Below are positions 2,908-33,152 of a stretch of 64,000 bases of DNA, piece by piece. The position numbers and the translations under genes were made by a program. Source of the DNA: a virus; the IMG/VR virus record IMGVR_UViG_3300025030_000060, positions 32,555-96,554 of that record; one strand, given 5' to 3'. The notes beneath the pieces were generated by a model that did not search any database, had not been told where the DNA came from, and worked only from the letters and a program-made list of their open reading frames with translations. Within the stretch, counting starts at the first letter, position 1, and every line of letters starts with the position of its first letter.

Positions 2908-4602
2908 TTAACTGTAAAAGCTGTCGATGTAGCCCTGAATTGATCGCGCCGACTCCATCAAGGCTTCACCGCCACCACTTTTCTCCTTCTCCTTGGCGGC
3001 GGCTTCCTCGGTAGCCTTCTTGGCGGCGGCTTCGGCAAGCTTCTTTGGGAACATGATCTTGAACTTCGCTTCATCCACTTTCATGATGTCGGTGAACAGG
3101 AAGTTCTCGAAGGCGTTTTTGTCGACTCCCAGCCATTCCTGATCCATCAGGCCCACGAGCTGCGCCATGCCGGTTGCGAGTTGGACGCGTCCCTCGCGGT
3201 TCTCCATCTCTTCGCGCTCCATGGCGGTCGAGACGCTGTTGAACACGATGCGGTAGGGCTTCTCGCCGGGGAGGAATGCCTTCTTGAATTTGTAGGCGAT
3301 ATGGATGTCGCAAAGCTGTTCGACGCCCGTCTGTATGGCATGCCGCAGCATCTGCGCCTTCATGGCAGCCATGACAGAAACACGGAAGAACCCGCCATCG
3401 CCAAGCCCCCCGGAAAGGTTCTCGCCAAAACCCAGCAGGGAAGGGTCGACGCCCAAGGCCCCGCATAGACGGTTGATGTGAAAGGTGATGTCGTTGATCG
3501 CTTCGATGTTCGGCGTGCCCTCGATAGTCGAGATGTCCAGCCGCGCCCGTCCGTCGCCGAAAATGGGGATCAGGTGGTTGATGACGGTCTGGATGAACCC
3601 CTTCTTGAGGCTTCTTTTTGCGTTGGCGGTATCCACCCGCTGCATCTGGCCTGCGACGATGTTCAGATACTGTGCCGCCTTCTGGGGGGAGAGCTTGCCG
3701 GTGTTGATGCCGATCATGCGCTCCATCCGGGATGCGTTTTTCCTGGACATGTTCAGGGAGAGGATCGCGTTGTTCAGGTCCATCCATGGCCCGTAGGATG
3801 TCTCCAACAGGCTCGTCCCGTAATTCTGGGATTCCGTGATGGAGTCGTCCTCGTAGTTGTCCACGGATAGGTCGAAGATCGAAGCGTCAACGCGGATAGG
3901 CTCCAGCAGGGACGGTTTCCACATGGGAATGCGGAACGGCACCATCTTCCACGGCTCCATAAGCTGAATGCCGCCCGTTTCCGGCTGTTGGTGCGCCGAG
4001 ACGTAGCCCGCCACGCCCCCGGCCTGCTCGTACATATTGACGAATTGGGGGTGAGTGTAGTAGTCGGAACGGACCTGCTTGATTCCTACGCCGTCCTCAC
4101 CGTAGACGCGGGCGAACCAGATGCCGTTGATCCCGGCGTTGTAGGCCCAGAACTGGCACTGGTCGTTGACTATTTTCTGAATGTTGTTGCGAAGGTCCAG
4201 GGTTATCGGGTCGGTTTCATCCCCGATACTCTCGATGGAGATGATCTCTCCGGTATCGGCCTTGGGGGAAAGCGCATGCGAGATATGCATCTTAATGGCT
4301 GAATCAATCGTCGGGTCCGTCGCCATGGTTCGGTAGACGTTGTAGCGGGCGAGGCGGGCCAAGGGAAGGTCTGTGATCTCCAGTTCGCCATCTTCGCCGG
4401 ACTCGGAGACCCCGCCAAGTTGAGACCCATCTTCGGCGAAATTCTCATAGATTGCGGAACCGGGAGGAAGTGCCAGCCCCCCCAAGTTCCTCGAATCAAC
4501 CTGTTGGGAACTGGGGAAGAGCTGCTTCCAAAATGGCTTCTTCGAGTTTTTATCTTCGGATGCGGCCATATACACGGGCTCCATGGTATAGTTTCGCGCC
4601 AC
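2908..4602 (-). CDS. portal protein (T4 gp20-like)
   Basis: 564 aa. The segment TDPTIDSAIKMHISHAL near residue 95, the long conserved middle and the following LGVDPSLLGFGENLSGG region are typical of portal proteins, which form the dodecameric DNA channel and nucleate the prohead. The first codon used is GTG at 4602; an in-frame ATG lies six codons in. The C-terminus ends EALME-SARS, so the last 14 residues could be trimmed by the maturation protease. A 30-bp element shared with the capsid gene lies just upstream. Confidence 0.85.
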   Translation of the reverse strand: MARNYTMEPVYMAASEDKNSKKPFWKQLFPSSQQVDSRNLGGLALPPGSAIYENFAEDGSQLGGVSESGEDGELEITDLPLARLARYNVYRTMATDPTIDSAIKMHISHALSPKADTGEIISIESIGDETDPITLDLRNNIQKIVNDQCQFWAYNAGINGIWFARVYGEDGVGIKQVRSDYYTHPQFVNMYEQAGGVAGYVSAHQQPETGGIQLMEPWKMVPFRIPMWKPSLLEPIRVDASIFDLSVDNYEDDSITESQNYGTSLLETSYGPWMDLNNAILSLNMSRKNASRMERMIGINTGKLSPQKAAQYLNIVAGQMQRVDTANAKRSLKKGFIQTVINHLIPIFGDGRARLDISTIEGTPNIEAINDITFHINRLCGALGVDPSLLGFGENLSGGLGDGGFFRVSVMAAMKAQMLRHAIQTGVEQLCDIHIAYKFKKAFLPGEKPYRIVFNSVSTAMEREEMENREGRVQLATGMAQLVGLMDQEWLGVDKNAFENFLFTDIMKVDEAKFKIMFPKKLAEAAAKKATEEAAAKEKEKSGGGEALMESARSIQGYIDSFYS

Positions 4603-4622
4603 AGCCTACTTGTACTAGCAGA

Positions 4623-4652
4623 GTTTAGAAAGGGTACTTTTAGGTATTATTG
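4623..4652 (-). promoter_or_regulatory. candidate late-promoter element upstream of portal
   Basis: On the minus strand a 30-bp block holds CAATAATACC, a 6-bp variable spacer, then TACCCTTTCTAA. 24 of 30 positions match the block at 47251-47280 upstream of the major capsid gene. It ends about 20 bases before the portal start. It resembles neither a sigma-70 pair nor the T4 TATAAATA box, so a phage-specific late element is the simplest reading. Confidence 0.5.
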
Positions 4653-4684
4653 GGTAATGCTGAGGAGTTGCGATGTGTAAAAAT

Positions 4685-4716
4685 AAAAGCGCCCCTTCTT
4701 GAGAAAGGACGCTTTT
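4685..4716 (-). terminator. rho-independent terminator
   Basis: Minus strand: AAAAGCG pairs with CGCTTTT across an additional partly paired stem, followed by TTTTATTTTT. The plus strand also carries a run of A before and T after the stem, so it could work in both directions. It ends transcripts from the cassette region or the small RNA candidate before the portal gene. Confidence 0.75.
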
Positions 4717-4834
4717 GTTGTGATCTCGCCGCGCACCCCTTCGTTTGCAGGCTATTGCGCTAATCACTCTCGCCATTCGGCATTATCCAGTACGGCCCTG
4801 ACGGCACTATTGCCGCTGCGGCTCCGGGGTATTT
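4717..4834 (-). ncRNA. candidate small RNA between promoter and terminator
   Basis: This 118-bp stretch has no convincing ORF (the best ATG gives 7 codons). It lies between a good sigma-70-like promoter (4841-4870) and the terminator at 4685-4716, predicting a transcript of about 150 nt including the terminator stem. It contains GTGAT...ATCAC complementarity near its 3' end. It does not fold as a tRNA by eye: there is no T-loop box or acceptor stem. Confidence 0.35.
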
Positions 4835-4840
4835 GGAGGG

Positions 4841-4870
4841 TATATACACCTAAAGTGACATAACTGTCAA
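4841..4870 (-). promoter_or_regulatory. sigma-70-like promoter
   Basis: Minus strand: TTGACA (4865-4870) followed after 16-18 bases by TGTATATA (about 4841-4848). The match is strong and points toward the candidate small RNA. The right half (ACAGTTAT) resembles one half of the palindromic operator seen at other promoters in the window. Confidence 0.55.
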
Positions 4871-4939
4871 GTGCGGCAGCATTTGCGTTTTCATTATCCC
4901 AACCAAACAGCTACAATCACTGAGCAATCCCGTTGATCG

Positions 4940-4986
4940 CCCTCGCGTGTTATGCCGCCGGTTGGCGAGATAATAACTAGTTAAAC
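4940..4986 (-). repeat. degenerate or truncated attC-like site (end of cassette array)
   Basis: Downstream of the 4993-5178 gene the minus strand has the inverse-core box GTTTAAC (4980-4986) and then a CGCC-AACC-GGCG hairpin. No matching GTTRRRY core follows, so only half of the site is recognisable. It marks the low-coordinate edge of the cassette-like array; the rest may have been lost by deletion. Confidence 0.35.
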
Positions 4987-4992
4987 CGACCT

Positions 4993-5178
4993 TTATTCGT
5001 CTACCTTCGTCGGCTTCAGGGTTTCAGCTATATCCCGGAACCGCTGTAGTTCGCGCTGTACCGCCACCTTCGCCCTGTGCCCTAATTGGTTGCGTGGGTC
5101 GCTCAAGAGGTACGCAAGCTCGTTTGCCTCGTCCTTGAGCAAGACTACTGCCTGATCAATTGCTTCCTTTCTGGTCAT
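4993..5178 (-). CDS. small hypothetical protein (cassette gene)
   Basis: 61 aa, charged and helical, no family recognised. Its ATG overlaps the stop of the upstream gene (5175-5178) inside the conserved junction GAGGCGGTGCGGCYATGA. It is the second gene of a two-gene cassette-like unit that ends in a half attC-like box. Confidence 0.6.
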   Translation of the reverse strand: MTRKEAIDQAVVLLKDEANELAYLLSDPRNQLGHRAKVAVQRELQRFRDIAETLKPTKVDE

Positions 5179-5426
5179 GGCCGCACCGCCTCTGCCGCCT
5201 TATAGCCGTCGTTTCGACCCTGCCAGTAGTCGCTGTTTTCGTATTCTGCGACGAGCAACCGCAGTTCCTCATTTTCAGCCGTCAGCCGCTCCACCTCGTG
5301 GCTAAGATATGCAGTCCCGCCAGAGGGAGCATCCAGGTACGACCGCAGCCGCTCCACCTCGGTAATGATCGCCATGACTGTTGGAAAATCTCTGAATATA
5401 ATCTTCTGTCTTTGCAAGTCCATCAT
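5175..5426 (-). CDS. small coiled-coil protein (cassette gene)
   Basis: 83 aa with a heptad-like segment (VERLTAENEELRLLVAEY) and the C-terminal tag AAEAVRP, which also ends two other cassette proteins in nearly the same form. It starts behind GGGAGG, 11 bases past the GTTAAAC core box of the attC-like element at 5437-5487. Function unknown. Confidence 0.6.
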   Translation of the reverse strand: MMDLQRQKIIFRDFPTVMAIITEVERLRSYLDAPSGGTAYLSHEVERLTAENEELRLLVAEYENSDYWQGRNDGYKAAEAVRP

Positions 5427-5436
5427 CCCTCCCAGG

Positions 5437-5487
5437 GTTTAACCCCTCGCTCGTCCGCTGGCGCGGCCAGCTCGCAAACCGTTATCC
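5437..5487 (-). repeat. attC-like recombination site b
   Basis: 51 bp. On the minus strand the left box GGATAAC contains the stop codon of the 5482-6003 gene, and the right box is a perfect GTTAAAC (GTTRRRY). Between them is an imperfect palindrome with a GCTGGC-CGC-GCCAGC stem. Much of the inner arm (CCGCGC, AGCGGAC, AGCG) is shared with the site at 6030-6078. Confidence 0.65.
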
Positions 5488-6003
5488 CTCGAACTCCGGG
5501 TTAAAATTCGGACAGGAAAAATCGCCGTGGGTCTGAACCGATCCTTTGCCACTACCAAACGTGATGTTTAGCCGGAACATTGGCACGGTGTCTTTCCCAA
5601 ACTCACCGAAAAGGTCGATCATGCAAGTCCGATACTCGCCTGTCAGCTCTTTAACGTAGTGCATCCCCTGTGAACCCCAGGCTTTGCACTGCCGGCACTT
5701 GCCGGTTGCCTCTTCGAGGCCCTCACCGTTGAGGCAACGGGGGATCTCCGCGCCGATGGTATCCGGTACCCGCCCGCCGCCCTGATCCTCCTGGAAGCAC
5801 ATCACCCTCTCAACCAGCAGTTCGATACTCTTGATATGCTCCGGGTTAGCACCCAACTCAATGCATTTGTACTTATACGTTTGAAGGGCGGCAGGGACAG
5901 CAGCGTCCTTTGCGCAGAGCAGGAGCGAGTCGACCTCTGTGTACTTCTTGCCGTTCACCGGGTTAAAGGCATGAATCTGGAATTTGCGGTCAATTACGCT
6001 CAT
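5482..6003 (-). CDS. hypothetical protein with Cys pairs (single-gene cassette)
   Basis: 173 aa, soluble. A CRQC pair (about 103-106) and further Cys residues suggest a small metal-binding region. No family recognised. It starts behind CGGAG, 27 bases past the GTTATCC core box of site c, and its stop lies inside the inverse-core box of site b. It is therefore the only single-gene unit in the middle of the array. Confidence 0.65.
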   Translation of the reverse strand: MSVIDRKFQIHAFNPVNGKKYTEVDSLLLCAKDAAVPAALQTYKYKCIELGANPEHIKSIELLVERVMCFQEDQGGGRVPDTIGAEIPRCLNGEGLEEATGKCRQCKAWGSQGMHYVKELTGEYRTCMIDLFGEFGKDTVPMFRLNITFGSGKGSVQTHGDFSCPNFNPEFEG

Positions 6004-6029
6004 GAATTTTCTCCGTTTTATAGTGCCAG

Positions 6030-6078
6030 GGATAACCCGGCGCTGGTCCGCTGCGCGGGCAGCTTGGTTGCGTTAAAC
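6030..6078 (-). repeat. attC-like recombination site c
   Basis: 49 bp. Minus strand: GTTTAAC (perfect RYYYAAC, holding the TAA stop of the 6073-6345 gene), a GCTGC-CCGC-GCAGC stem, then GTTATCC. The right box fits relaxed core sites (GTTAT-type) better than the strict consensus. The inner arm is homologous to site b. Confidence 0.65.
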
Positions 6079-6345
6079 CAGAATGATTTCTCTTGCGTTA
6101 ATGGAACAGTTATCGGATATCGGAGAAGTCCCATACCAGCGCAGGTACCACTTACCGTTGACGCCCTTGGCTTTCCACATCTTCCCCTCGTAAACTCCCG
6201 ATGGTATAGACGACGAATACTCGGCCAGAAAATTAAATGTCTTTTCGGACATCAGCGCGTGAGTGCCGTCAATCTCGATTGCAGACCGATGCGGTTGATT
6301 CCAGTACGCGCCCAGAGGGTCTGTCATTGCAGGTATCTCGCTCAT
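6073..6345 (-). CDS. small hypothetical protein (cassette gene)
   Basis: 90 aa. The C-terminal half (GVYEGKMWKAKGVNGKWYLRW) looks like a small beta-rich fold. Its start overlaps the stop of the 6342-6623 gene through the conserved junction sequence, and its TAA lies in the attC-like box. Function unknown. Confidence 0.6.
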   Translation of the reverse strand: MSEIPAMTDPLGAYWNQPHRSAIEIDGTHALMSEKTFNFLAEYSSSIPSGVYEGKMWKAKGVNGKWYLRWYGTSPISDNCSINAREIILV

Positions 6346-6623
6346 AGCCGCACCGCCTCTGCTTTAGCCATGTCCAGAAGTTCAATGAGCTTTTCGTCAG
6401 AGACATCGGCCTTTGCTGCCAAAACTGCAACTACGGCGTGCAGCGCATCCCTCTGGACAGTGACCCGCTCCACCTCACCAGAGAGTGAGTTGACCATAGA
6501 CCGTAACTCCCCGATCTCGCCTTTGAGATCATCACACGCGCCGTGAGGGCATACCTTCGGAAGCGCTGCCTCAGCCGTTGACCTACCTCTACCTTGATAC
6601 ATGTACCCTTTAGCGTCACCCAT
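6342..6623 (-). CDS. small coiled-coil protein ending in AEAVRL (cassette gene)
   Basis: 93 aa. It has a CPHGAC segment, then a coiled coil (LKGEIGELRSMVNSLSGEVE) and the C-terminal tag KAEAVRL. It starts behind GGAGG close to the GTTAAAC core of site d. It is similar in build to the 5175-5426 product, which suggests a shared cassette origin. Function unknown. Confidence 0.6.
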   Translation of the reverse strand: MGDAKGYMYQGRGRSTAEAALPKVCPHGACDDLKGEIGELRSMVNSLSGEVERVTVQRDALHAVVAVLAAKADVSDEKLIELLDMAKAEAVRL

Positions 6624-6640
6624 CTCTTCATCCCTCCAAA

Positions 6641-6728
6641 GTTTAACCAGCAGGTCGAGGCGACCGAGCCGGTGGTAGTGAGCAGGAGTTGGCGAGAGTT
6701 CCCGCGCCTCACCTGCGGTCCGTTAAAC
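6641..6728 (-). repeat. attC-like recombination site d (best match)
   Basis: 88 bp. Minus strand: perfect GTTTAAC at the stop of the 6723-6884 gene and perfect GTTAAAC at the other end. The arms GCAGGT-GAGGCG and the complement of CGCCTC-G-ACCTGC pair over 12 bases with a single extra base on one side. An unpaired base in an otherwise paired arm is the hallmark that orients integron attC hairpins. The loop region is about 40 bases. Confidence 0.75.
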
Positions 6729-6884
6729 CGGCTCCTGGAACCTTGCTTTTTTTGCAGTCTCTTTGACTACTTCAACGTCCCAAGAGGCACCATCTTCCCC
6801 AATTTTACGGATTGCATCCTCTTTCGATTCAGCCTCTATGCAGGCGGTCTCTTTTATCGTCCTGGTGACTTGATACCAGTTCAT
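6723..6884 (-). CDS. small hypothetical protein (cassette gene)
   Basis: 53 aa from the ATG at 6884, which overlaps the preceding stop (ATGA). An upstream in-frame start would extend into the 6881-7237 gene. The sequence (MNWYQVTRTIKETACIEAES, then KEDAIRKI) resembles short phage proteins with a beta-alpha repeat, but no name can be given. Confidence 0.55.
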   Translation of the reverse strand: MNWYQVTRTIKETACIEAESKEDAIRKIGEDGASWDVEVVKETAKKARFQEPV

Positions 6885-7237
6885 AGCCGCACCGCCTCTG
6901 CCTTGCGAGCGTTTTGCATGGTGCTCGCGAAGCAACTGGCTGTCGCAGCCGTGTTTTCGTAGTGGGTTTGCATGGAGCGCAATGCCCTAGCCAGGGTGCC
7001 GTCTTCCGATGTCGAGTGCCACGGCGTTTTCTTGCCGTAGCCGGAGATTTTCACTTCGTACTTGGCTTTGCCGTCCTTCTCCCTCCTCTCCACCTGGAGG
7101 GTCGAAAGCCTGTTGAATCCACTGCTCTGTATCCCGGTGGCGCGTAGGTACCCTTCGGGGTTGGACGACTTGTGCACCGTCCAATCGTAGCCGGGCATGA
7201 TCTTGACCAGTTCTTTTCTGAAATCTGCTGGACTCAT
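6881..7237 (-). CDS. hypothetical protein ending in AEAVRL (cassette gene)
   Basis: 118 aa, basic, with a likely small alpha/beta domain (ELVKIMPGYDWTVHKSS). It ends RKAEAVRL, encoded by the same junction repeat found at 5178 and 6345. It starts behind GGGAGG just past the GTTAAAC core of site e. Function unknown. Confidence 0.6.
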   Translation of the reverse strand: MSPADFRKELVKIMPGYDWTVHKSSNPEGYLRATGIQSSGFNRLSTLQVERREKDGKAKYEVKISGYGKKTPWHSTSEDGTLARALRSMQTHYENTAATASCFASTMQNARKAEAVRL

Positions 7238-7252
7238 TGTTTACCTCCCAGG

Positions 7253-7300
7253 GTTTAACCAATCGCCGCAGCCATCCGGCTGGGCTCAAAAGCGTTAGGC
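7253..7300 (-). repeat. attC-like recombination site e
   Basis: 48 bp. Minus strand: GCCTAAC (perfect RYYYAAC, with the stop of the 7295-7477 gene), inner arms GCC-C-AGCC and GGCT-GC-GGC around a GGAT loop, then a perfect GTTAAAC. Both boxes match the integron consensus exactly. Confidence 0.75.
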
Positions 7301-7477
7301 CTTTATGTCCTTCACTGTCCCGATAATCTTAATTTTTGAGTGCTCGCCCCAGCGTGACGTAGCAGTTCCGGTTTCCAACATTTGAGTTCTGATACGAAAC
7401 GCCTCCCATCGTCTACCAAGACTGAATACGATAAGCAGCACGCCAATTACCGCTAAAACAAGTATTGTTGTAATCAA
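7295..7477 (-). CDS. single-pass membrane protein (cassette gene)
   Basis: 60 aa. An N-terminal transmembrane helix (about residues 2-20) is followed by a basic cytoplasmic tail. It starts with TTG at 7477 behind GGAGGGAAAG; no ATG is available nearby. The stop is within the inverse-core box of site e. Function unknown. Confidence 0.55.
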   Translation of the reverse strand: MITTILVLAVIGVLLIVFSLGRRWEAFRIRTQMLETGTATSRWGEHSKIKIIGTVKDIKA

Positions 7478-7505
7478 CTTTCCCTCCTCCTAGCCCACTG
7501 AAGGG

Positions 7506-7572
7506 CAATAACCAGTGCTCGGACGCCGACCGGCAAACAACGTCGGACGGGTCAAGCACATGGCCGTTAACC
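7506..7572 (-). repeat. attC-like recombination site f
   Basis: 67 bp. Minus strand: GGTTAAC at the stop of the 7567-7812 gene, arms GTGCT...CCGAC pairing with GTCGG...AGCAC, then GTTATTG. Both outer boxes are one base off the strict consensus. The long imperfect stem supports the call. Confidence 0.55.
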
Positions 7573-7812
7573 CGATTTTGCCGCCCTCTTCAGCGTCTTC
7601 GCCACCTTCGAGGTGATCGCTTCGCGCATGAATTCGGTTTCACCCTCTCCGGTGATCTCTCGCGCCTTGCTAATTCCCTCATACTCGCCGCAGGTAAAGC
7701 GTATCCCTTTGCTGACCTTCAGCGGGTTCTCTTTCCTGTAGTCCTTCTTTCGGCCCGCTCCCGGTTTTGCACCTCCAAGAGGTTTCCCGTTGGCATTAAA
7801 TCCTTTTGGCAT
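7567..7812 (-). CDS. small basic protein, possible DNA-binding (first cassette gene)
   Basis: 81 aa, Lys/Arg-rich. The N-terminus GGAKPGAGRKKDYRKENP resembles the flexible basic lead of phage DNA-binding proteins. A helical C-terminal part (EFMREAITSKVAKTLKRAA) could be ribbon-helix-helix-like. It is the first unit of the cassette-like array. DNA binding is inferred from composition only. Confidence 0.6.
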   Translation of the reverse strand: MPKGFNANGKPLGGAKPGAGRKKDYRKENPLKVSKGIRFTCGEYEGISKAREITGEGETEFMREAITSKVAKTLKRAAKSG

Positions 7813-7864
7813 CGCTGTCTCTCCTATGTATTGGGCTCATGGCCTTCGAAGATATCTGTCAACA

Positions 7865-8005
7865 TTAAGCATTCCCAGCTCCGCATGTCGCGCAAGAAAA
7901 ACCCGCGCTGCCGTGAGCCTGCGCCCACTCGCCGACATGAATAACCCTTTTGCACTGATTGCACGTCTTAGGGTCGGTGATCTTAACCACCACGACACGG
8001 CTCAT
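7865..8005 (-). CDS. 46-aa zinc-ribbon protein
   Basis: Open frame from the ATG at 8005, overlapping the TGA of the upstream gene, to TAA at 7865. It contains CNQC and CATC pairs 23 residues apart, a typical zinc ribbon. Good packing and the motif make it a likely real gene despite its size. TTGACA follows the stop on the minus strand and may be the -35 of a promoter for the cassette array, but no good -10 is seen. Confidence 0.6.
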   Translation of the reverse strand: MSRVVVVKITDPKTCNQCKRVIHVGEWAQAHGSAGFSCATCGAGNA

Positions 8006-9156
8006 TTTAACTCCTTCAGTTCCACAAGTACGCCATATGCTTCGTCATGGTGCAACGTCCCGTAGGCGCTTTCGCTTACCTTTTCGATAAACCCGCACAT
8101 GAGGGCGAAGGCTTTTTCAATCCGCTCCGCGTTCTGGAGTGCAGCCATGAACAGTACCGCCAGGGCCTCGCTCTCGGCGTCCCCTTGCGGGCCAAAAGGG
8201 GCTACGAGCGCATGCGGGGTGAAGACTGCGACATGGGGTCCGGGATAGGTCGAGCCAGAGAGCTTGCCGTGAATCTCCCCCTCCCATATGCCTACCCCCA
8301 GCAAACCACCCCCGAACTTTTCAGCCAGCATCTTCATGGCGTGGACTGTCTGGATGACGTTCATGTCCTTAAGCGCGACGCAGTTCTCCGGGGGTGTATC
8401 CTCTTCAGCCATCAGTTTCACTGGGGGGGCAATGCGATCCCCCCTTCGGTTAAATGTGGCTCCAGGTTCCGCATCAAAATCGTGCTCTTCTTCGGCGCGA
8501 CAACGGGCACACGTCGGGTTTTTGTCCCCGTTCGGGTCCTCATCCATCACACTCAACTCATCTCCGCAACCAAGGCAAGGTGCAAGAGCCTCATAGACCT
8601 CCCGCGAGATATAGGAGTCTTCATCGACCAGGACCAACTTCTTCGTGTGGTGCCCGCCATGTTTAGGGTCTATCACGATGTTGTCGGCAGATGGCGCGTA
8701 TTCAGGCGCGTGAAGTCCGTCGCAGCGATCCCCAGTAATGCAGCAGTCGGGGCCGCACTCGCTATGGTTCCCCGGTACAGGGGTCCCGGAGATATCAAGG
8801 GAGTGATGCACCCCAGCATGGCCGTAGCAGTCGCGCACGTAATCCGCGCCCTCCTTGGCGGTGATGTTCCCGTTACATCGCGAACAAAGCCCGTAGCCGG
8901 TATCCTGATTGAACCATTGCTTGAAGGCCGGGGCATCTTCCCCGCAGCAGGCGCAGTGCAGATGGAAGACGCGGCACTTGAGCGAAGACTCAAGGTACTT
9001 TGCCAGTTTCGCGCCCTGCTCGGTCCACTCCATGCCGAAGCCTACGATACGGACCCACCCTATGGTGCAAGCGGCCACGAGAATTGCGGTATCCGTGGGG
9101 TTGTTGGGGAGGGTTCCAGTAGCCACCAGTTTTCTGACATCCACGATGGTAATCAT
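8002..9156 (-). CDS. hypothetical Cys/His-rich protein
   Basis: 384 aa from the ATG at 9156 (ATGA overlap with the upstream stop). It has several zinc-binding-like Cys pairs: CACC near residue 65, CSRC, CGPDCC, CLGC and CARC. The C-terminal half resembles a phage accessory domain rich in Gly and acidic residues. No enzyme motif is recognised. A role in host takeover or DNA binding is possible but unsupported. Confidence 0.6.
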   Translation of the reverse strand: MITIVDVRKLVATGTLPNNPTDTAILVAACTIGWVRIVGFGMEWTEQGAKLAKYLESSLKCRVFHLHCACCGEDAPAFKQWFNQDTGYGLCSRCNGNITAKEGADYVRDCYGHAGVHHSLDISGTPVPGNHSECGPDCCITGDRCDGLHAPEYAPSADNIVIDPKHGGHHTKKLVLVDEDSYISREVYEALAPCLGCGDELSVMDEDPNGDKNPTCARCRAEEEHDFDAEPGATFNRRGDRIAPPVKLMAEEDTPPENCVALKDMNVIQTVHAMKMLAEKFGGGLLGVGIWEGEIHGKLSGSTYPGPHVAVFTPHALVAPFGPQGDAESEALAVLFMAALQNAERIEKAFALMCGFIEKVSESAYGTLHHDEAYGVLVELKELK

Positions 9157-17117: not shown

Positions 17118-20100
17118 CTATTCCCCTGATTTATCCTCTGTGATGCCGAATTCCTTCTGCATCTTGGCTGCGGAGGGCACCGGCATTCTCTCTCCGCTGG
17201 CAAGAACGACATCATGGAAGGTAGTCGGGTAGCGGGCAAATACCTTGCCGTTGACACTGGTAGAGATGACCTGCTGGGTGCGAACCTGAAAGCCTGACTT
17301 GTCCGGGAAGGTCATGCGTATGGCGTGATCCCGGACGTTGCCGAAGAGGGCCACGTCGCCGCCGCCCTTGCGCTCCAGCACGTCGCCCAGCTTCCATGCC
17401 ATCTTGTTCTCGAACTGCTCGATGTAGAAGTCGGCGGAATCACTCGCCAGCTTCGCCATGACATTCTGCCAGTTCGGGTTGAGCTTGCGGGTCGGGACCA
17501 TGAGAGGGGCCAACTCTTCGCTTACCCTCGCATAGGTCTGGTTCTCCCACTGGTTCCCACTGCGTCCGGGACGTAGCAGGTTGAAGTCGCCATCGGTGAA
17601 ATAACGCTCAACCATGACGGTGAATCTCGTGGTGATCGACTGTACGATCTCGGTGCGGAAGTCGGCGGAAATGAGGTCGAGGACCTTTTTCAGCTCCGGG
17701 CGCTCCTTGTGGCGCTTCAGGGTCGCGTCCTCCTGCTCCTTCTTTACGGTCTTCTCCTGCTCCTTCTCCAACTTGGCGGTCTGCGCCTCTTCCTTCAGAC
17801 GCTTGTTGATTTCCCGCTCCTTCTGGTCGCGCAGGTCGGCGACGGTCCAATAGAGGTCAAGGTCCCCTATCTGCTCCTTGGAACCGCGTAGGCTGGGTAT
17901 CAACTCGAACTTGTCATTATCCAGATTCTCCATCTCGCGTTTGGTAGTAACTGCATCCATCCGGGCCAGATAGTCCTGCATGCCGGGGATACCAGCGGCT
18001 ATGGAGCGCAGCACGGCTACACGCTGGGGTCCCGTTTTGGGGTTCTTGGGAATGGCAGGGGCGGGCTGCATCGACTGGATTGATTTAGCCAGCGCCCGCG
18101 CCTCTTCCATCTGGTCCGGGGCGAAGGTGGTAGTGCCCCCCGACTCACGGGCGTCGAACTTCACCACGTCGTAAACGGTAAGGGTCCCGGCCTCGCCCGC
18201 CCAATCAAGGTGCGCTTCGGCGCTGTGCCACTCCTTGCCTGCGGCTACCATCGCGGTCATACTGTCGCGCCCCTGCGGGACGTACCAGAACACGTTGAGC
18301 CCGTTTCTTAGCAGTGCTTCGGTATGCTCGGCAACCGTGGCGCTCATGGTGCCCTTAACGATAGCGTCTCCGAAGGAACCGTCTTTACCGCGCTCCGTAC
18401 TGACCTTGAACTCGTCCCGCTTGATCCCGGAACGGAGCATGGCGTCAATGAGGCGGGACGCCTGCATGGTCGGTGCGCCCTTGCGGTTCAGGGACTGTTC
18501 CCACTCCTTGTACGTGGCGTCGGGGTCAGTAGTAGCCGGGGTAGGCTCCGTCTCTTTCACGTCTGCATCCCTGCTCACCTGATAGTAATACCCGTGGCCG
18601 CGCTTCTCATCGTCAAAACTGAACTCGCAAATTTCGTTGAACACGCTTCCGTCGAGGTTATGGATGTAACACTGGTAGTCGTAGGGCTGGATACGGACGG
18701 TTTCAGCCTTTGCAGGGGCATCGGAGCCATCAGACTCGCGGGTAGGCTCCCCTTTGCCATATCGGGCATGTTTGACTCCATTCGTGACGGAGTAGGTATC
18801 GTCGCTCGGACGGGACGGGTTTTCAAAGGTTTCCCGGTCGAGGTCAAAGGCCAGCCCCTTCTTCTCGCAAGCAGCCTTTATGGCTCTGAAGAACTCAGCC
18901 ACGGTCACATTTTGCCGGGATACTTCTACTTCGGATTTCATGGCACCCTCCTTATCGGTAGATGCCACAACCTTAAACCCGTCTTGATTATTTGTCAAAC
19001 GGTTAATCACTCCGGCAGCTTCTTTTGCCTTCATGATAGCCGTTTCTAGGTCCGGATAGATGTTGGCAACCGGCACGACCTCCCCGGAGTCGAGGTCTTT
19101 GAGGGTGACGGAGTAGCCCTTTTCCACCTTGGCAACCCGTGCCTCGGTTCCGTCCTCTTCGTTGCGGAAGGTCTCGATGATCTTGGAGGTAGAGGGCGGG
19201 TCGATGAACCCCGGCCACTTCTGCGCGAAAGCCGCTTGTATGTCGTCAAAGGATACTGCGTCAAGGATTCGGGCTTTCCATGCGAGCGGGGAGCGTTGCG
19301 CCCATTCTCGTAAATCGGACTCTGTGAAAGCCGCTTCCAGTATTACATCAGAGAGCGGCTTTGTGGTGTCACCGGCTGAAAGCCATTCCTTGAAGTCGGG
19401 CATGTGCATGGCGGTCATGGCCCCCAGGCGCTTCGCCCCCTTGCCGTCAGAGAAACCGGCTATGTATAGGTCGCGGGCCTCCTTCTGCGACAACGTGCCA
19501 AGGTAGACTTTTGCTTCGTCGTAGCGGCCCGTTTTGGCGTCCACTTGGTCCACGATGAAAACAAGTTCGCTCTCGGGGTGATCGCCTATGTAGCAGTCAA
19601 CATGATCCCCGTCTTTTGCAAGAGTGCCCTTGAAAAATCCGTAAGTGGCGGCCATGGTCACTTCCCACGGTGTACCATCCGGGTCAATGCCGCTTCTCTT
19701 GCTCCCCTTCGGGTTCTCTATGGAGATACGGAGACCGTGCATGGTGATGTGACCGTGGCGGTAATTACCGGCTTCAAGCTGCGCCTGCGTCGGGTGCGGC
19801 AGGTCGTTCAGGTGAGAGGTGGCGGCCTCATGCGCGGCTGCGTGGACCTCTTCGGCGGTGGCGGATTCGAGGATGGGCTTGACAGGCTTGTCGTCTTTTG
19901 ATACGGTTGGACCTGAACCCGCTTCTTGCTTGCGACTTTCGGAAAGGCCCTCCGATTTGCCACCACTTTCATCCGTGGGAGGAACATGAGGGATATTTAC
20001 GGTCGCCCCTCCGTGAGCAAGGATGCGGGCTTTTTCTTGCCTAAATTTTGACAGATACTTGTTCGCCTTGGGTCCTGACAACTTCCAGAAGTTCCATACT

Positions 20101-20705
20101 ATGTTGGTGCCGTCTTTCGGACCTATCTCTACTATCGTCAGATAGTCTTTCGCAGCATCCCGATATATAAAAAGAACGCTTTTCTCTCTATGCTGTGTAA
20201 GAAAACTCGTGCCTACGTTGGGAAGAATCTCAGTCGGGTGCGTTACGGCCAGTCTCAGGTATTTTTCGTCGTCCTTAGTGAGCTGATTGCCATGTCGATT
20301 GCGGATATAAACGATGGTACTGCCATCTATCGCTATCACGCTCTCTTCAGTGTCAAACCCTAGCGCCCTGACTTCCTGCAAGGCTTTACCTTGCAAGCGT
20401 CCCAATACGCTCGGCTTGAGACGCCACTCAGCATCAGCCGATTCCGTAATAAACCCATCTTCGGCCATGGCTGCGTAAAGCTCATCGCGCCATACACCGC
20501 CGTGTTGTACCGCACTTTCCATAACCGCCCCGATCCCCATGGATTTTTTGAAGACGCCCGTGACGTACTTCCAGAAGCCTTCCCCATCCGACTCTTTGAG
20601 GCCGTTCTCCCCGGCTATCACCTTCGCCTGTTTCCAGCGTTTATCCGCTTCGGCAAGGTCGATGCCAGAATCATCCGCTATGGATTTTACAAGAGCTGCG
20701 GGCAT
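17118..20705 (-). CDS. large polyvalent internal protein with nuclease-like and InPase-like domains
   Basis: 1195 aa. Residues about 300-450 match the phage inorganic-pyrophosphatase-like domain of polyvalent proteins (NYRHGHITMHGLRISIENP, then DPDGTPW and HVDCYIGDHPESE). Residues about 95-235 resemble the PBECR-type (barnase/EndoU/RelE-like) nuclease domain of the same protein class; this is a weaker call. Motifs VME-SA (after E63), ILE-SA (after E280) and ILE-AA (after E457) sit exactly between these units and look like maturation-protease sites. The C-terminal third is charged and coiled. It is probably packaged in the head and injected. The start follows GAGGGGAAACC. Confidence 0.7.
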   Translation of the reverse strand: MPAALVKSIADDSGIDLAEADKRWKQAKVIAGENGLKESDGEGFWKYVTGVFKKSMGIGAVMESAVQHGGVWRDELYAAMAEDGFITESADAEWRLKPSVLGRLQGKALQEVRALGFDTEESVIAIDGSTIVYIRNRHGNQLTKDDEKYLRLAVTHPTEILPNVGTSFLTQHREKSVLFIYRDAAKDYLTIVEIGPKDGTNIVWNFWKLSGPKANKYLSKFRQEKARILAHGGATVNIPHVPPTDESGGKSEGLSESRKQEAGSGPTVSKDDKPVKPILESATAEEVHAAAHEAATSHLNDLPHPTQAQLEAGNYRHGHITMHGLRISIENPKGSKRSGIDPDGTPWEVTMAATYGFFKGTLAKDGDHVDCYIGDHPESELVFIVDQVDAKTGRYDEAKVYLGTLSQKEARDLYIAGFSDGKGAKRLGAMTAMHMPDFKEWLSAGDTTKPLSDVILEAAFTESDLREWAQRSPLAWKARILDAVSFDDIQAAFAQKWPGFIDPPSTSKIIETFRNEEDGTEARVAKVEKGYSVTLKDLDSGEVVPVANIYPDLETAIMKAKEAAGVINRLTNNQDGFKVVASTDKEGAMKSEVEVSRQNVTVAEFFRAIKAACEKKGLAFDLDRETFENPSRPSDDTYSVTNGVKHARYGKGEPTRESDGSDAPAKAETVRIQPYDYQCYIHNLDGSVFNEICEFSFDDEKRGHGYYYQVSRDADVKETEPTPATTDPDATYKEWEQSLNRKGAPTMQASRLIDAMLRSGIKRDEFKVSTERGKDGSFGDAIVKGTMSATVAEHTEALLRNGLNVFWYVPQGRDSMTAMVAAGKEWHSAEAHLDWAGEAGTLTVYDVVKFDARESGGTTTFAPDQMEEARALAKSIQSMQPAPAIPKNPKTGPQRVAVLRSIAAGIPGMQDYLARMDAVTTKREMENLDNDKFELIPSLRGSKEQIGDLDLYWTVADLRDQKEREINKRLKEEAQTAKLEKEQEKTVKKEQEDATLKRHKERPELKKVLDLISADFRTEIVQSITTRFTVMVERYFTDGDFNLLRPGRSGNQWENQTYARVSEELAPLMVPTRKLNPNWQNVMAKLASDSADFYIEQFENKMAWKLGDVLERKGGGDVALFGNVRDHAIRMTFPDKSGFQVRTQQVISTSVNGKVFARYPTTFHDVVLASGERMPVPSAAKMQKEFGITEDKSGE
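18987..19007. promoter_or_regulatory. intragenic operator-like sequence
   Basis: Inside the 1195-aa gene: TTGACA in an ATTATTTGT/ACGGTTAAT-like half-palindrome, close to the operators at 10163, 10686 and 28397. No good -10 follows on the minus strand (TTTAAG at 16 bp is weak). It may be a regulator site or a chance match. Confidence 0.3.
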
Positions 20706-21215: not shown

Positions 21216-22294
21216 AGCGCCCCCTTGATGGTCGGGTCCTGCGCGAATTCTTTGGAAATGGTGATCTTCTTTTGGTTGAAAACGTCCCCGGTGAGCCTGT
21301 TGATAGAGTACGCCCCGCTTTCAGGCTTACCCGCCGCGAGGAAGAGCCAGAGCGCCCGCTTCGCGTTCTTCTCGCCCTTCACGTTCCAGGATGACCTAAG
21401 CCTCCCGGAACCGTCCTCGTGAGGCCATACCACGGACCACTTATTTCGGTAGGAGTTGTACAGCGAGTACCCAGTGCCCTCCCAGAAGTCCCCTGCCTTG
21501 GCAATCTTCTTGTCCAGCGCCTTCAGGAAGTCCTCGGAGGTCTGCACGGCGTCTTTCTGGTCCGTCATGGCCGATTGCTGCGCGGCCACTCTTGTTTTGT
21601 CGATCCTCGCCGGGGTCGCCATGTACCCCACCATGAAGTTGAAATGGTCCGGGTCCTTTTCAAGGAGCGTTGCCATGGCTTCCGGGGAGTTGAAATATTG
21701 CATGCCCATGGAAAAGACTTCGGTGATGCCGTTACGGTAATATTTCCCCACATAGGGGTCTATGAAGGAGTCAGCATAAGCTACCTCATCACGCCCGTAC
21801 CGCGTGTTTCCGGTGAGCTGGGAAAGCCTCGTGACTTGCTTATTTTCCACCCTGCCTGTGCGCTGGTCAAGAAAGCGGTTGGAGATGGCCTTCGTTCTCT
21901 CGTCGTCTTCCAGGATGTGGGCGAGTTCGTGGAAAAAGGTAGTCTTGCCAAATGCACCCGCCACATAGACCACGCCAGTCAACGGCTGTGCCGCAGCCCT
22001 CCCACCCCCTTTGGTCTCGAAGCTGATCCGGGAAAGCCTGCCGCCCGTGAGCCGGTGGAACTCAGTCATGTCTTGCTTCAACGTAGTCATGTCGTAGCCG
22101 CGCTTCTTCAGGTTGGTCTGCATGTTCTTGGTGACAAGAACCATTTCGTCAAACCACGCATCGGCGGCCTCTTTGGAAATGGGGGAAGCGGCTATGACGT
22201 GATCCTTGATCTTGCCGATCTCTGTGCGGGCGGTGGCAATCGCGGCCTTCTGCGCTTCGGTGATCGCCTTATACTCTACCGTTATCTGCTCCAT
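21212..22294 (-). CDS. zincin-like metallopeptidase domain protein (polyvalent type)
   Basis: 360 aa. HELAH (residues 122-126) followed by a later Glu in ITEVFSMGMQYF is the pattern of zincin metallopeptidases common in polyvalent proteins. Residues 1-60 are coiled. The ATG has no good ribosome binding site. The same frame runs upstream into the coiled-coil end of the 22269-23405 gene, and a one-base shift at an A5 run joins both into a continuous coil. It may therefore be the C-terminal half of a split gene. The peptidase could act on host defence or envelope proteins after injection. Confidence 0.65.
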   Translation of the reverse strand: MEQITVEYKAITEAQKAAIATARTEIGKIKDHVIAASPISKEAADAWFDEMVLVTKNMQTNLKKRGYDMTTLKQDMTEFHRLTGGRLSRISFETKGGGRAAAQPLTGVVYVAGAFGKTTFFHELAHILEDDERTKAISNRFLDQRTGRVENKQVTRLSQLTGNTRYGRDEVAYADSFIDPYVGKYYRNGITEVFSMGMQYFNSPEAMATLLEKDPDHFNFMVGYMATPARIDKTRVAAQQSAMTDQKDAVQTSEDFLKALDKKIAKAGDFWEGTGYSLYNSYRNKWSVVWPHEDGSGRLRSSWNVKGEKNAKRALWLFLAAGKPESGAYSINRLTGDVFNQKKITISKEFAQDPTIKGAL

Positions 22295-23405
22295 CTCGGC
22301 GTTGAGGTCCCCGGCTTCCTTTTTCGGCTTGCTCGTAAAGGGTCTGCATCTCCTGCCGCACGGCCTTCACGGCGTCGTTCTGCTCATCCCAAAGGCCCTG
22401 CATCTTTGCTGACCATGCCTCATACTTTTGGATGTATTCCGCTTGGGTTTGGAAATTATCTCTGGCGTAGGAGTAATCGGCAGGTTTTTCTATTGCCAAA
22501 TTATCCCGGAGCATCTGGTATCCCTTGCCAAGGTTGACGATCTCCAGTTTCTTCCCCTCGTAGCCGTTCTTTTCCAGGGCTGCGGTTCGCCGCTGGTCGT
22601 AAGCGAAGATGATCGGACTGGCCTTGGTGTTCAGCTCTTCCATGGCACGGGTGATCTCGTCGTTGGCCGCTTTGATTCGCCTGATGGCCGCCATGGGGGC
22701 CACGCCTGCGCGGGCGCACACGTTCTGTGCCTCGTCCCGGTATGCTGCGAGCTTCATGTCGGTGTAGGCCGTCGCCTCTATCGGGTTCTTGAGCTGCGCC
22801 GTAGGGACCCCCGTCACTCTCGTGATGGTATCCTTGTAGATAAATACCCCGTTGTCGAGCTGAATGTTGTAGTTGCTCACGATGTTATTGAAATCCCGCG
22901 TCGCCTCCAGGCGGTCGTCAACGTTGGCGTTCTCGTCGTAGGACACCGCCATGAGGGCCTTTAACTTTATGCCCAAAGCCATAATGGCGTCCATGTTCTG
23001 TGCCGCATCCGAAAGGCCGGGGTAGTTGCCAGCAGGCCCGTTGTAGTCGAAGGCATGGGCGAACCATGAAGCCAGCGAAGCGAAGTCGGGAGACGCCTGA
23101 ATTCCTTTGATGGCAGAGACGCGGGCCGTTCCCGCTGCGCTGCCTTCCAATTCGGCAACCTGGATTCCTTCAAACTTGGCGTCATGCTCGGCGATGTCGT
23201 TGCGGAGATGGTCGGCATCCCAGTTGCCGCTAAGGATGTATCCCCTTATCTCGTCCTTCGTGTACCCCTCGTCCTCGTACTGGGGCCAGATTTTGCCCCA
23301 CCACTCGTTAAGCAGGTCGTCGTCCGGGGTGATGGCACCCTCAAAGATGTGCTTCAGTGCCTGCCAGTCGCCGGAACTCGCGGCTTCAAGGATATGCTGC
23401 ATCAC
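22269..23405 (-). CDS. internal protein with N-terminal cleavage motif (possible 5' part of a split gene)
   Basis: 378 aa. It begins MMQHILE-AASSG, so protease cleavage after E7 would remove a short leader, similar to small capsid-targeting leaders in other packaged proteins. The rest is mostly helical. The last 16 residues (SRGPQRRDGADNGRV) look out of frame. Shifting one base at GAAAAAGG restores EKEAGDLNAEMEQITVEY and continues into the next gene. No domain recognised with confidence. Confidence 0.6.
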   Translation of the reverse strand: MMQHILEAASSGDWQALKHIFEGAITPDDDLLNEWWGKIWPQYEDEGYTKDEIRGYILSGNWDADHLRNDIAEHDAKFEGIQVAELEGSAAGTARVSAIKGIQASPDFASLASWFAHAFDYNGPAGNYPGLSDAAQNMDAIMALGIKLKALMAVSYDENANVDDRLEATRDFNNIVSNYNIQLDNGVFIYKDTITRVTGVPTAQLKNPIEATAYTDMKLAAYRDEAQNVCARAGVAPMAAIRRIKAANDEITRAMEELNTKASPIIFAYDQRRTAALEKNGYEGKKLEIVNLGKGYQMLRDNLAIEKPADYSYARDNFQTQAEYIQKYEAWSAKMQGLWDEQNDAVKAVRQEMQTLYEQAEKGSRGPQRRDGADNGRV

Positions 23406-24364
23406 CCCTCCAGAAGTTTAGCGAGTTTCGGGTTTTCCATAAACCGCTTTCTCAGCATGGGGTTCTTGGTCTCGATGATGGTTTTCATGTCGAAATCGCC
23501 CAACTGCTCGGCATACTTTGCCGCCTTTTCGGGATCGTCATACTTCTGGCTTTTGAAGTGGGTATCCCCGAATTCGTCAACCTTGCCAGCCTCGTACTGC
23601 TTGCGAAAAAGCTCCACCTGATACTGGTAGCCAGTTTGGGGATGCTCGCCGCGCCAGGCATTCCGGTTGCCCTGTTTCTTCCAGTGCCAAGCAGGGGAGC
23701 CGATGGTAGCTGGTGCCTTGGCCGCTTCGAGAATTGTTGATCCGTTCCAGAGCTTCCCAAATGCCTCCTGCATGGCGCTTTCCATGATGGAAGTCACCTT
23801 GTCGGAGTTCTTCTCGATGTAGGCGATGGCCGGACCCTTCAGGGACTCGATATCCTTGATCTCGTCGGCAATCTCTTTCAGTTTGCCAAGGAAGGCCAGC
23901 GGGTCGAGGCTGTCGAACTTGCCTGCTATCAGGTCGGCGAGGTTCTGGTTAGCCGGTGCAACCTCTTCACCCTTGGATGGGGTGTATTTAAGCGCCATCG
24001 CTAAAACAGCATCAAGCGGGATGTCTCCGGTCCTTTCTCCAACATACCCATTGTAAACCCCTTCCCCGTTCACGCGAATGCGGTAGGCCCCAGCGTCTGT
24101 CTCCCCCGGCTGTCTGACGTAAACCTGCGTGATGCCGTTGGCGTGGCTGTAAACGTCGTCTCCTGTACCTACGCGCTTTGTCCATCCAGCAGGCATAACT
24201 TCGGCGGGGATGTCCACCTTGGCGTTCAGCTTCGCCATGGCGTCCGTCAACTCTCTTTGCAGTCGCCGCTTGTCGGTGAATGAGATACCCCCCGCCGCGA
24301 GGGCGGCGAGGTTCGTCTTTACTATTTTCTGGAGTGCTCTCTTCTCGGCAAATGAAAGGGCCAT
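23402..24364 (-). CDS. internal/core protein with two cleavage motifs
   Basis: 320 aa. The N-terminal coil carries ALSFAEKRALQKIVKTNLAA and a small beta domain (RIRVNGEGVYNGYVG, about 95-110). IME-SA after E195 and ILE-AA after E213 flank an 18-residue piece. The C-terminal part (SPAWHWKKQGNRNAWRGEHP) is basic. It lies between other motif-bearing proteins and overlaps both neighbours or abuts them closely, so it is likely co-packaged. Function unknown. Confidence 0.6.
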   Translation of the reverse strand: MALSFAEKRALQKIVKTNLAALAAGGISFTDKRRLQRELTDAMAKLNAKVDIPAEVMPAGWTKRVGTGDDVYSHANGITQVYVRQPGETDAGAYRIRVNGEGVYNGYVGERTGDIPLDAVLAMALKYTPSKGEEVAPANQNLADLIAGKFDSLDPLAFLGKLKEIADEIKDIESLKGPAIAYIEKNSDKVTSIMESAMQEAFGKLWNGSTILEAAKAPATIGSPAWHWKKQGNRNAWRGEHPQTGYQYQVELFRKQYEAGKVDEFGDTHFKSQKYDDPEKAAKYAEQLGDFDMKTIIETKNPMLRKRFMENPKLAKLLEG

Positions 24365-31900: not shown

Positions 31901-32358
31901 ACTGCATTTGACTGCGCCAGTACAGCATTCGCCTGCGCCTGTATGGCTGCCGCTCTTGCTGACGAGGCGTCCGTTGCAGATTGAGCCGCTGCGGCTGCGG
32001 CAGTGTTGGCCAAAGTGGACTTATTGAAGGCCGCTATCGCATCATTCATCGCCGATGTGGCAGAGGCATTTGAGGCATTTGCTGCCGCTGTTGCCTGATT
32101 TACCAAGTTCGTGAGGTCCGTACCGCCCGATGTCCCGATAGTCAGACTTTTCCCCGTTCGATCCGTGGTGAGAGTAATACCCCCCGCGCCGATCAGTTTC
32201 AGCGTGTTGCCGATCTGCGTTGACCGCAATGTTTCCTGGCCCGCAGTGGATAGGTTCATGTAACTGGGGCCGATAATTGTTGCGGCCTGCGCGGAACTGC
32301 TGATAATGACCGCGCTTGCAAATATGACCGCCAGTAACAGTTTAATTCTCGATATCAT
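28963..32358 (-). CDS. large Ala/Ser/Thr-repeat tail fibre with Sec signal peptide
   Basis: 1131 aa. Most of residues 75-420 and 590-930 are short AATSASSASTSA-type repeats, as in side tail fibres that form long trimeric stalks. A non-repeat domain (about 425-590, SSVLFSDPLNELSYAYTLSN onward) looks like a beta-sandwich. The C-terminus starts YTLKVDANGKVAGIGL, similar to the segment near the end of lambda J-type tip proteins, and ends in a receptor-binding-like domain. The first 26 residues are a good Sec signal peptide (SSAQA-AT), unexpected for a virion protein assembled in the cytoplasm. Confidence 0.8.
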   Translation of the reverse strand: MISRIKLLLAVIFASAVIISSSAQAATIIGPSYMNLSTAGQETLRSTQIGNTLKLIGAGGITLTTDRTGKSLTIGTSGGTDLTNLVNQATAAANASNASATSAMNDAIAAFNKSTLANTAAAAAAQSATDASSARAAAIQAQANAVLAQSNAVNAAATASAMVETAGSIVMDVEGAAAAAAAAAISEANAVFAANEADGDATAAETSATDAATSSTSASGFADAANTSASQASTSAGQAGTSASAAATSATTATTKAADASTSATAAATSASSADTYKTAAETASTAATSAKVAAEAANTAAGTSASAAATSASNASSSAGAASTSASAANTSKLAAETAQSAAQSAQTAAVTAKNSAESAESAAATSATNAANSATTAGGSASAAATSASSASTSATNAGNSATAAAASSVSAASSYGETVAASSSVLFSDPLNELSYAYTLSNPPITADANAYNVANTSGNGGPLALSRTGLVNIFTRKLYPVSPLRTYRFTIVARRTVDQAGGDLYAGYAALDASYANVTYPSAAYQYVLTGPTDLQVAQGWQTYTLTLPGSSIVGTGTGIVAVRPMAILNYPSGTTSTYEIAQLSCEDITESVSAGGSATAAATSASSAGTSATNAGTSATSAAASAVTATSKAADATTAASAAATSASSASTSEGNAGTSASAAAASATAASTSAGSASTYASQASTSADNAASSATTAGTNATNAAGSAGTASTQASNASGSATAAAASATAAAASETAAGGSATAAASSATTASTQATNAGNSATAAAASAVTAASEAAGASTSASAASTSASSASTSAGAAGTSATAAAASATAANTSAGSASTYASQASTSAGNAATSETAAGTSASNASASASTASSQASSASTSAGNASASATAASNSATAASTSEGNALSYSNSAASSSSTASSAATTAGTHASNASGYATSAATSASEADTAANQYSAQYTLKVDANGKVAGIGLFSDSTLGSLINFAAGAVNISSGKTGYTDYSTAGYWLGNSSGVGKFNIGSTSFNSLRWDGSNLYIKNLTPSGATTGSIAVGTASTCVVALEISGGAVNAYRTYSVRAVNRSTRNYRPVGGDTDNGWYTVTGVTDGTSSTGNSFLYVCTGAAGGDTFYYGNNSWE

Positions 32359-32382
32359 ATGGATGTCTCCGTTTGCCAGGGT

Positions 32383-33138: not shown

Positions 33139-33152
33139 TGAAGCCCCTCCTG

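Follow-up and report, generated by a model that had tools for sequence, protein, structure and literature searches.

How does a phage genome come to hold a row of small genes separated by hairpins that resemble the recombination sites of an integron, and whose machinery would move them? The question is raised by the window analysed here, a stretch of 64,000 nucleotides comprising bases 32,555-96,554 of the 96,554-base virus record IMGVR_UViG_3300025030_000060 (G000). At window positions 4980-7572, upstream of a P1-like portal gene, imperfect hairpins with RYYYAAC-like and GTTRRRY-like flanking boxes alternate with small open reading frames (ORFs) coding on the minus strand; in the units read, the upstream gene ends with a stop codon at or close to the first box, and after the second box comes the next ribosome binding site. 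Integrons are generally viewed as a bacterial gene-capture device whose cassettes are read from a promoter at the attachment site attI. An original prediction, made from the letters of the window, described an integron-like cassette array inside a phage, either captured from a host integron or forming a private system. The array itself is confirmed by our analysis, and we consider it very probable that the window holds an integron platform, that is an attI and four or five cassettes, belonging to a phage-borne lineage in which the ORFs are reversed as compared with classical integrons, an inversion relative to attC that the prediction had missed.

The five elements and the half site previously described all lie where they had been placed, and four of the five display the R''/R' boxes and the bulged L stem of an attC site. 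They are lettered here a to e by their first position (5437, 6030, 6641, 7253 and 7506), all on the minus strand. Site a (5437-5487) runs from GGATAAC to GTTAAAC with a bulged G on the 3' arm of the coding strand, and site b (6030-6078) from GTTTAAC to GTTATCC with a bulged C on the 3' arm; both combine one exact box and one 5/7 box with a bulged stem. Site c (6641-6728), of an 88-nt type also found in contigs L003, L008, L088 and L098, runs from GTTTAAC to GTTAAAC and has 12 pairs and a bulged G, which is the single extra base reported earlier for a 12-pair arm, while site d (7253-7300) runs from GCCTAAC to GTTAAAC with a bulged C. Sites c and d, formerly called d and e, apparently with the half site counted as a, match both RYYYAAC and GTTRRRY exactly. 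Only site e (7506-7572, GGTTAAC to GTTATTG) departs from the attC plan that had been claimed for all five: it is degenerate, with boxes at 6/7 and 4/7 by hand count and no bulged stem under the grammar given below, and is perhaps the former far end of the array.

This grammar combines the two boxes with an L helix and an inner helix and with a single extra base on the 3' arm. In the 96,554-base record its matches on the coding strand are exactly four (5437, 6030, 6641 and 7253), a count that is descriptive and not predictive because the grammar was composed after the window sites and others were known; the opposite strand gives one match, and 30 first-order Markov shuffles of the coding strand give a mean of 0.13 and a maximum of 1. 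A looser scan (7 pairs, boxes 10/14) ranks sites c and d top, and its total of 51 matches in the record is not above that of six shuffles (44 to 86), hence loose matches alone are meaningless. Given a post hoc grammar and a looser scan no better than shuffles, it is the comparative tests that carry weight. Across all sites attC lengths range from 44 to 129 nt, the short ones being poorly aligned by MAFFT. Outside the window, record positions 22,136-22,689 (L002) are rich in AACGACCGTT / GTTNAAC repeats, a source of false attC-like matches. An Rfam scan of window 4500-8500 found no family at the gathering score, a result of little weight for attC, and we know of no attC family in Rfam; two sub-threshold matches in this interval were judged to be chance, and a sub-threshold match to CRISPR-DR53 at window 7587-7623, within a coding region, is probably chance as well.

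An integron cassette passes through a circle, so that its own 5' TTRRRY and 3' RYYYAA boxes pair whatever its neighbour in the array. Indeed, own-end boxes match exactly in 31 of 35 units from 12 arrays, in a list that omits the degraded L004 array and units truncated by contig ends and that was not blind, some ends having been placed while looking for a match; shuffled unit ends give a mean of 4.27 matches and a maximum of 12 in 100,000. Removal of the units starting with the commonest box leaves 21 of 25 matching (shuffle mean 1.56, maximum 9), and the seven arrays of the window's group taken by themselves give 17/20 (shuffle mean 6.1, maximum 14). The two boxes of one site match each other in 4 of 34 cases only.

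The orientation of the genes was examined through the extrahelical base, which determines the attC strand recombined by the integron integrase IntI (PMC2727003). Of 33 phage sites, 30 carry this base on the 3' arm of the coding strand and none on the 5' arm, whereas among 28 classical control sites 24 have it on the 5' arm and one on the 3' arm, with three ties. Control arrays were taken from TJE1 and from two intI carriers, Vibrio MK672802 and Shewanella MZ568829; of their 36 matches 28 were retained and eight removed as lying in genes or off the array (one with a 3' bulge); the phage set omits one L114 site (boxes GTATAAC/GTTAACT, 3' bulge). Evidence that does not depend on structure comes from contigs G005 and G009, of phages otherwise unrelated by blastn. 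They have a unit in common, 99.2% identical over 239 nt, which opens with the R'' box before a hairpin and then takes in the hairpin, GTTAGGC and the gene, up to where the G005 contig ends. Since this block opens with that box and the hairpin comes after it, the hairpin goes with the following gene. On this evidence from sequence, the genes of the phage array are read as inverted relative to attC when compared with classical cassettes. With respect to intI, the attC strand is arranged as in classical integrons, thus only the cargo is flipped, and the window genes run toward the attI-like end instead of away from attI.

What had been described as a half site appears to be the attI junction, its coordinates having been right and its role missed. 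It is the R'' box GTTTAAC at 4980-4986, which closes the last cassette and forms part of a putative attI-like element at 4875-4989 (minus strand), at the 3' end of the array. The element is 79% identical over 115 bp to contig G004 and 75.7% over 115 bp to L088. It sits conserved after the last stop codon, next to last cassettes that differ, and this place fits attI since it is the one expected if genes face backwards. A motif built from 13 such elements, nine of which it matches, has a single occurrence in the record, at this very position; at L006 7146 no clear attI similarity was seen. Of 30 viral IntI loci tested, 20 have a related attI-like motif ahead of intI, at a distance of 55-111 nt; the 30 were taken from 60 rows with partial, repeated and weak rows omitted (L166 and L167 are near-identical). 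Of these 20, 18 have on the intI strand a reading frame, open for 49 codons or more, that ends within the box or at most 4 nt away, the exceptions being L149 and L165.

The original prediction had pointed to gene order in related phages as telling, and one close portal relative was found among viral contigs, L003, with 98% protein identity. Along 4.1 kb, starting a little upstream of the portal gene and going inward, its DNA is 94% identical to the window's record, and the match picks up again at the array's end element (84% over 58 bp). In between, the 1.6 kb of array in L003 again has attC-like sites and shows no blastn match (E 1e-5) to the window's array and no common unit; the conserved gene order that would have spoken against cassettes is thus not seen in this relative. 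At blastn E 1e-8, what the window's record has in common with G004 is limited to the array-end element and one cassette, and with G003 to cassette b; with G005 it shares the 88-nt attC as well as 108 bp at another place; "unrelated" is used here in the sense of blastn on DNA and not of protein comparison. Besides the L003 contig, an exact 17-base leader, GGTTAAACCCTGGGAGG, is found in L004, whose array is degraded, and in L006, L007 and L008. The pattern GCGAGGGGTTAAACCC retrieved eight stretches, of which L006 and L007 are arrays while L011-L016 contain no array, and the pattern CGCCTCGANNNGCTGGTTA retrieved 69 stretches, with 11 matches having any attC-like fold (L003, L008, L048, L088, L090, L092 and L098 were used; L034, L042, L064 and L095 were left aside). 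Like arrays occur in viral contigs of other samples (L048, L090, L092, L118/L121, L153, L154, L159). Together, unit replacement, common units and box matching indicate that cassettes probably move as units, which we regard, like the anatomy of the predicted sites, as well supported.

As for the enzyme, the 88-nt site pattern led to G009 (L098), in which the array runs into a 388-aa protein, P0002. This protein scores 362.5 bits with TIGR02249 (cut-off 265), contains PF13495 and PF00589 domains and aligns with V. cholerae IntI (PDB 2a3v) at E 1.2e-67 over residues 28-340; the IntI-specific insert and the catalytic residues are presumably present, as judged by eye from the family's motifs. Residues 341-388 form a C-terminal extension past the part aligned with 2a3v, as in most of the closest phage IntI, and the L114 IntI is shorter (348 aa). 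Among 11 records searched, G009 alone exceeds the TIGR02249 cut-off; it also encodes a primase and a weakly matched terminase (E 9.3e-7). Two more tyrosine recombinases of G009, at 7,819-8,586 and 19,778-20,257 (368- and 304-aa frames), remain below this cut-off. The PF00589 proteins of G003 and G004 (L009, L010) were rejected as IntI, having ordinary phage-integrase N-terminal domains and scores below the TIGR02249 cut-off.

IntI relatives are present in further viral contigs, and in four loci phage genes stand beside intI: terminase (L110, L112), portal (L110) and primase (L109, L114), those of L110, L112 and L114 coming after intI. Ten proteins were tested; both of those from L113 are without family, and of those from L118 one is without family and the other gives a weak tail match, so the phage nature of L113 and L118 rests on the collection's label. 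In a tree sampling phage-contig IntI together with Vibrio and Shewanella IntI, and not bacteria broadly, the IntI of L109, L110, L112, L113 and L114 group in one clade (100/99), separate from the Vibrio and Shewanella enzymes. The best IntI matches among known phage records are at ~38-41% identity.

We therefore propose, conditionally, the following mechanism. IntI would recombine the folded "bottom" strand of attC, here the coding strand, with a cut at RYYYA^AC, and a cassette would consist, in order, of the attC hairpin, GTTRRRY, the ribosome binding site, one or more genes and RYYYA. Incoming cassettes would insert at attI beside the portal gene, at the promoter-distal end, and it is transcription coming from the phage operon upstream, in place of an attI promoter, that would read their genes. 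As the window's record has no intI, the integrase would work in trans; catalysis would fall to the IntI of sister phages, most likely supplied by a co-infecting or co-resident intI-bearing phage of the group, otherwise by a host integron.

Several points weigh against this interpretation. The statement of the original prediction that no integrase is in view holds for the whole 96.5 kb record, which has no PF00589 and no TIGR02249 match, and which may be incomplete with intI possibly outside it. Recombination is moreover deduced purely from comparison between sequences. The window alone gives a modest result, four of five units matching, which 956 of 20,000 shuffles equal; the unmatched units of the full list are unit e-d of the window, the first two of L007 and the first of L114, and scoring the L004 unit as a miss brings the count to 31/36. 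Regarding orientation, three of the 33 phage sites (window e, L006_2, L007_2) have no bulge structure, and the count is inflated by non-window sites that came from scans retaining only 3' bulges, the window sites being unfiltered. A later unfiltered scan upstream of intI placed the extra base on the 3' arm in 18 sites and on the 5' arm in four; when it is limited to sites with a box recurring downstream, nine of ten have it on the 3' arm and L153 719-781 on the 5' arm. In L118 the strand is not uniform, some of the ORFs between sites being on the opposite one. Finally, the attI motif was composed with sequences already known and is absent from ten of the 30 IntI loci (L115-L117, L123-L125, L150, L161, L163, L164).

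The best surviving alternative is that the phage captured a piece of a host chromosomal integron and has no cassette system of its own, the array being an ordinary cluster of attC sites lacking an integrase (CALIN). Such capture has precedent in Vibrio and Shewanella phages, according to PMC9892861, and would agree with the lack of intI in the window's record. It is nonetheless improbable in our view, given that both the attI-like element and units turn up repeatedly in phages with no other blastn relationship, that IntI genes of one clade adjoin terminase, portal or primase in four loci, and that the inverted genes depart from the classical plan. Bacterial genome contigs, scanned with the single leader pattern, gave one match, in Fulvivirga, judged by eye to be chance with no attC scan behind it; no attC-like boxes were seen by eye up to 300 bases upstream and up to 200 downstream. 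Hence, of the two alternatives first offered, capture from a host integron is the poorer fit and the private cassette system the better one, with its attI-like element and units recurring in blastn-unrelated phages and with intI present in several phages.

Swapping of phage modules by homologous recombination at short boundary sequences, with no integrase, is far less probable still. A 21-nt junction, GCAGAGGCGGTGCGGCCATGA, does recur within two-gene cassettes in a boundary-like manner, but attC stems vary in sequence yet keep their structure, boxes match by unit and not by site, and intI stands at the array end. Least credible of all are intrinsic terminators or regulatory RNA hairpins with coincidental box matches, since these do not predict per-unit box matching, a common unit starting at a box, a one-sided extra base or differing units at one locus, even though the hairpins are placed between stop codons and ribosome binding sites and attC is thought to hold weak terminators (PMC9892861).

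Phage genomes with CALINs or integrons are already known, namely TJE1, PH101, P12002L, MW202573 and Vibrio and Shewanella prophages (Qi et al. 2023, PMC9892861). These resemble the window in having attC arrays in phages, mostly without intI, and IntI1 recombined five of six phage attC sites in the assay of that paper. The TJE1, Vibrio and Shewanella phage sites are of classical orientation, unlike the window's array, and the parts of the paper that were consulted make no statement on genes inverted relative to attC; one of its CALINs, MW202573, looks inverted from one scored site and from matching boxes seen by eye. For PH101, no convincing match to the published active attC sites was obtained in its three pieces, with a scanner that misses some real sites. 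Among titles and abstract openings in the literature (few subscription papers, no preprints in scope), no phage arrays with genes inverted relative to attC were found. With at least two attC sites and no intI, the window's record would itself be called a CALIN, a name that does not imply the attI-like site present here.

Classical integrons (VchIntIA, IntI1) share with the phage arrays the intI family, attI, the attC R/L boxes with their extra base, the per-cassette box pairing and the attC strand relative to intI, but here the ORFs face attI/intI, the array is in a phage and the window's record has no intI. Treponema integrons (PMC3607928) likewise have intI and cassette genes on one strand; there, however, intI is transcribed toward attI, whereas in the phage group the cassettes run toward attI and intI away from it as in classical integrons. 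P1-like phages and Vibrio phage-plasmids have the same portal family, and the P1 integron is, according to PMC9892861, an acquired class 1 integron mosaic, unlike an attI platform at the portal gene.

The cassettes of the window, all on the minus strand, are as follows. Cassette a (4993-5426) contains two overlapping small genes, for 83 aa (ending AEAVRP) and 61 aa, with ends TTAAAC / GTTTAAC. Cassette b (5482-6003, ends TTATCC / GGATAAC) encodes a 173-aa protein beginning MSVIDRKF, with a homolog in phage contig L006 at 53% identity and with identical end boxes. In the relative G001, ~1.1 kb is extra at 32,243-33,361 as compared with G000 23,634-23,678; it has no attC match and, judged by eye, includes a nuclease-like gene together with a homolog of cassette b's MSVIDRKF protein, a gene which may thus be present outside cassettes as well. 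Cassette c (6073-6623) has two genes, for 93 aa (ending AEAVRL) and for 90 aa, the latter the one window cassette protein matching phrog_24427, whose function is unassigned in PHROG. Cassette d (6723-7237) encodes a 118-aa protein ending AEAVRL and a 58-aa protein, and a 64% identical homolog is itself a cassette in contig L007. Unit e-d (7295-7477) encodes a 60-aa protein, and its end boxes TTATTG / GCCTAAC do not match each other.

None of the window cassette proteins gave a match at the Pfam cut-off. Among ten cassette proteins from other arrays, NADAR (L109, L113), GNAT (L118) and a UVR motif (L006) are above the cut-off, while matches of the radical SAM/DUF5131-like, DHH-like and DUF551-like kinds stay under it and three proteins are without any match; a counter-defence role of this cargo is a guess. 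In two-gene cassettes, the junction GCAGAGGCGGTGCGGCCATGA, near-identical over 18-21 nt, links the first gene, often ending AEAVRP/AEAVRL, to a differing second gene. It is found in the window at 5175-5195, 6342-6362 and 6881-6901 (minus strand) and elsewhere at L004 9774-9794, L007 348-365, 1248-1268 and 1927-1947, L008 13391-13411, L088 361-381 and L098 4023-4043 (minus strand), and may couple the translation of the two genes or mark a second recombination boundary.

The array is bounded by small genes near 7,812 and by the downstream portal gene (2908-4602, minus strand), which is P1 Prt-like (phrog_1497, E 4e-135) and shows 33.8% identity to P1-group phages and 43.1% to a Vibrio plasmid. 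At 4680-4730 (minus strand), in the interval from the portal gene to the attI-like element, inspection by eye showed a hairpin that resembles a terminator and has a T run. A giant protein of the phage matches DNA methyltransferase, DarB-like and helicase families.

Beyond the platform itself, we lean, by a small margin of belief, toward a cassette economy of the phages' own, in which an IntI lineage that has an attI of its own, inverted cassettes and an intI gene closing the cassette operon would shuffle accessory, perhaps counter-defence, genes between unrelated co-infecting phages, some of which, such as that of the window, would borrow the integrase. If true, a phage lineage with conventional recombination geometry and reversed cargo shows that the classical layout is not needed, and explains the trade of small accessory genes among phages without homology. 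The marked boundaries would show exactly which phage genes are mobile, and site-specific cassette shuffling between phages becomes testable with one integrase and short attC oligonucleotides.

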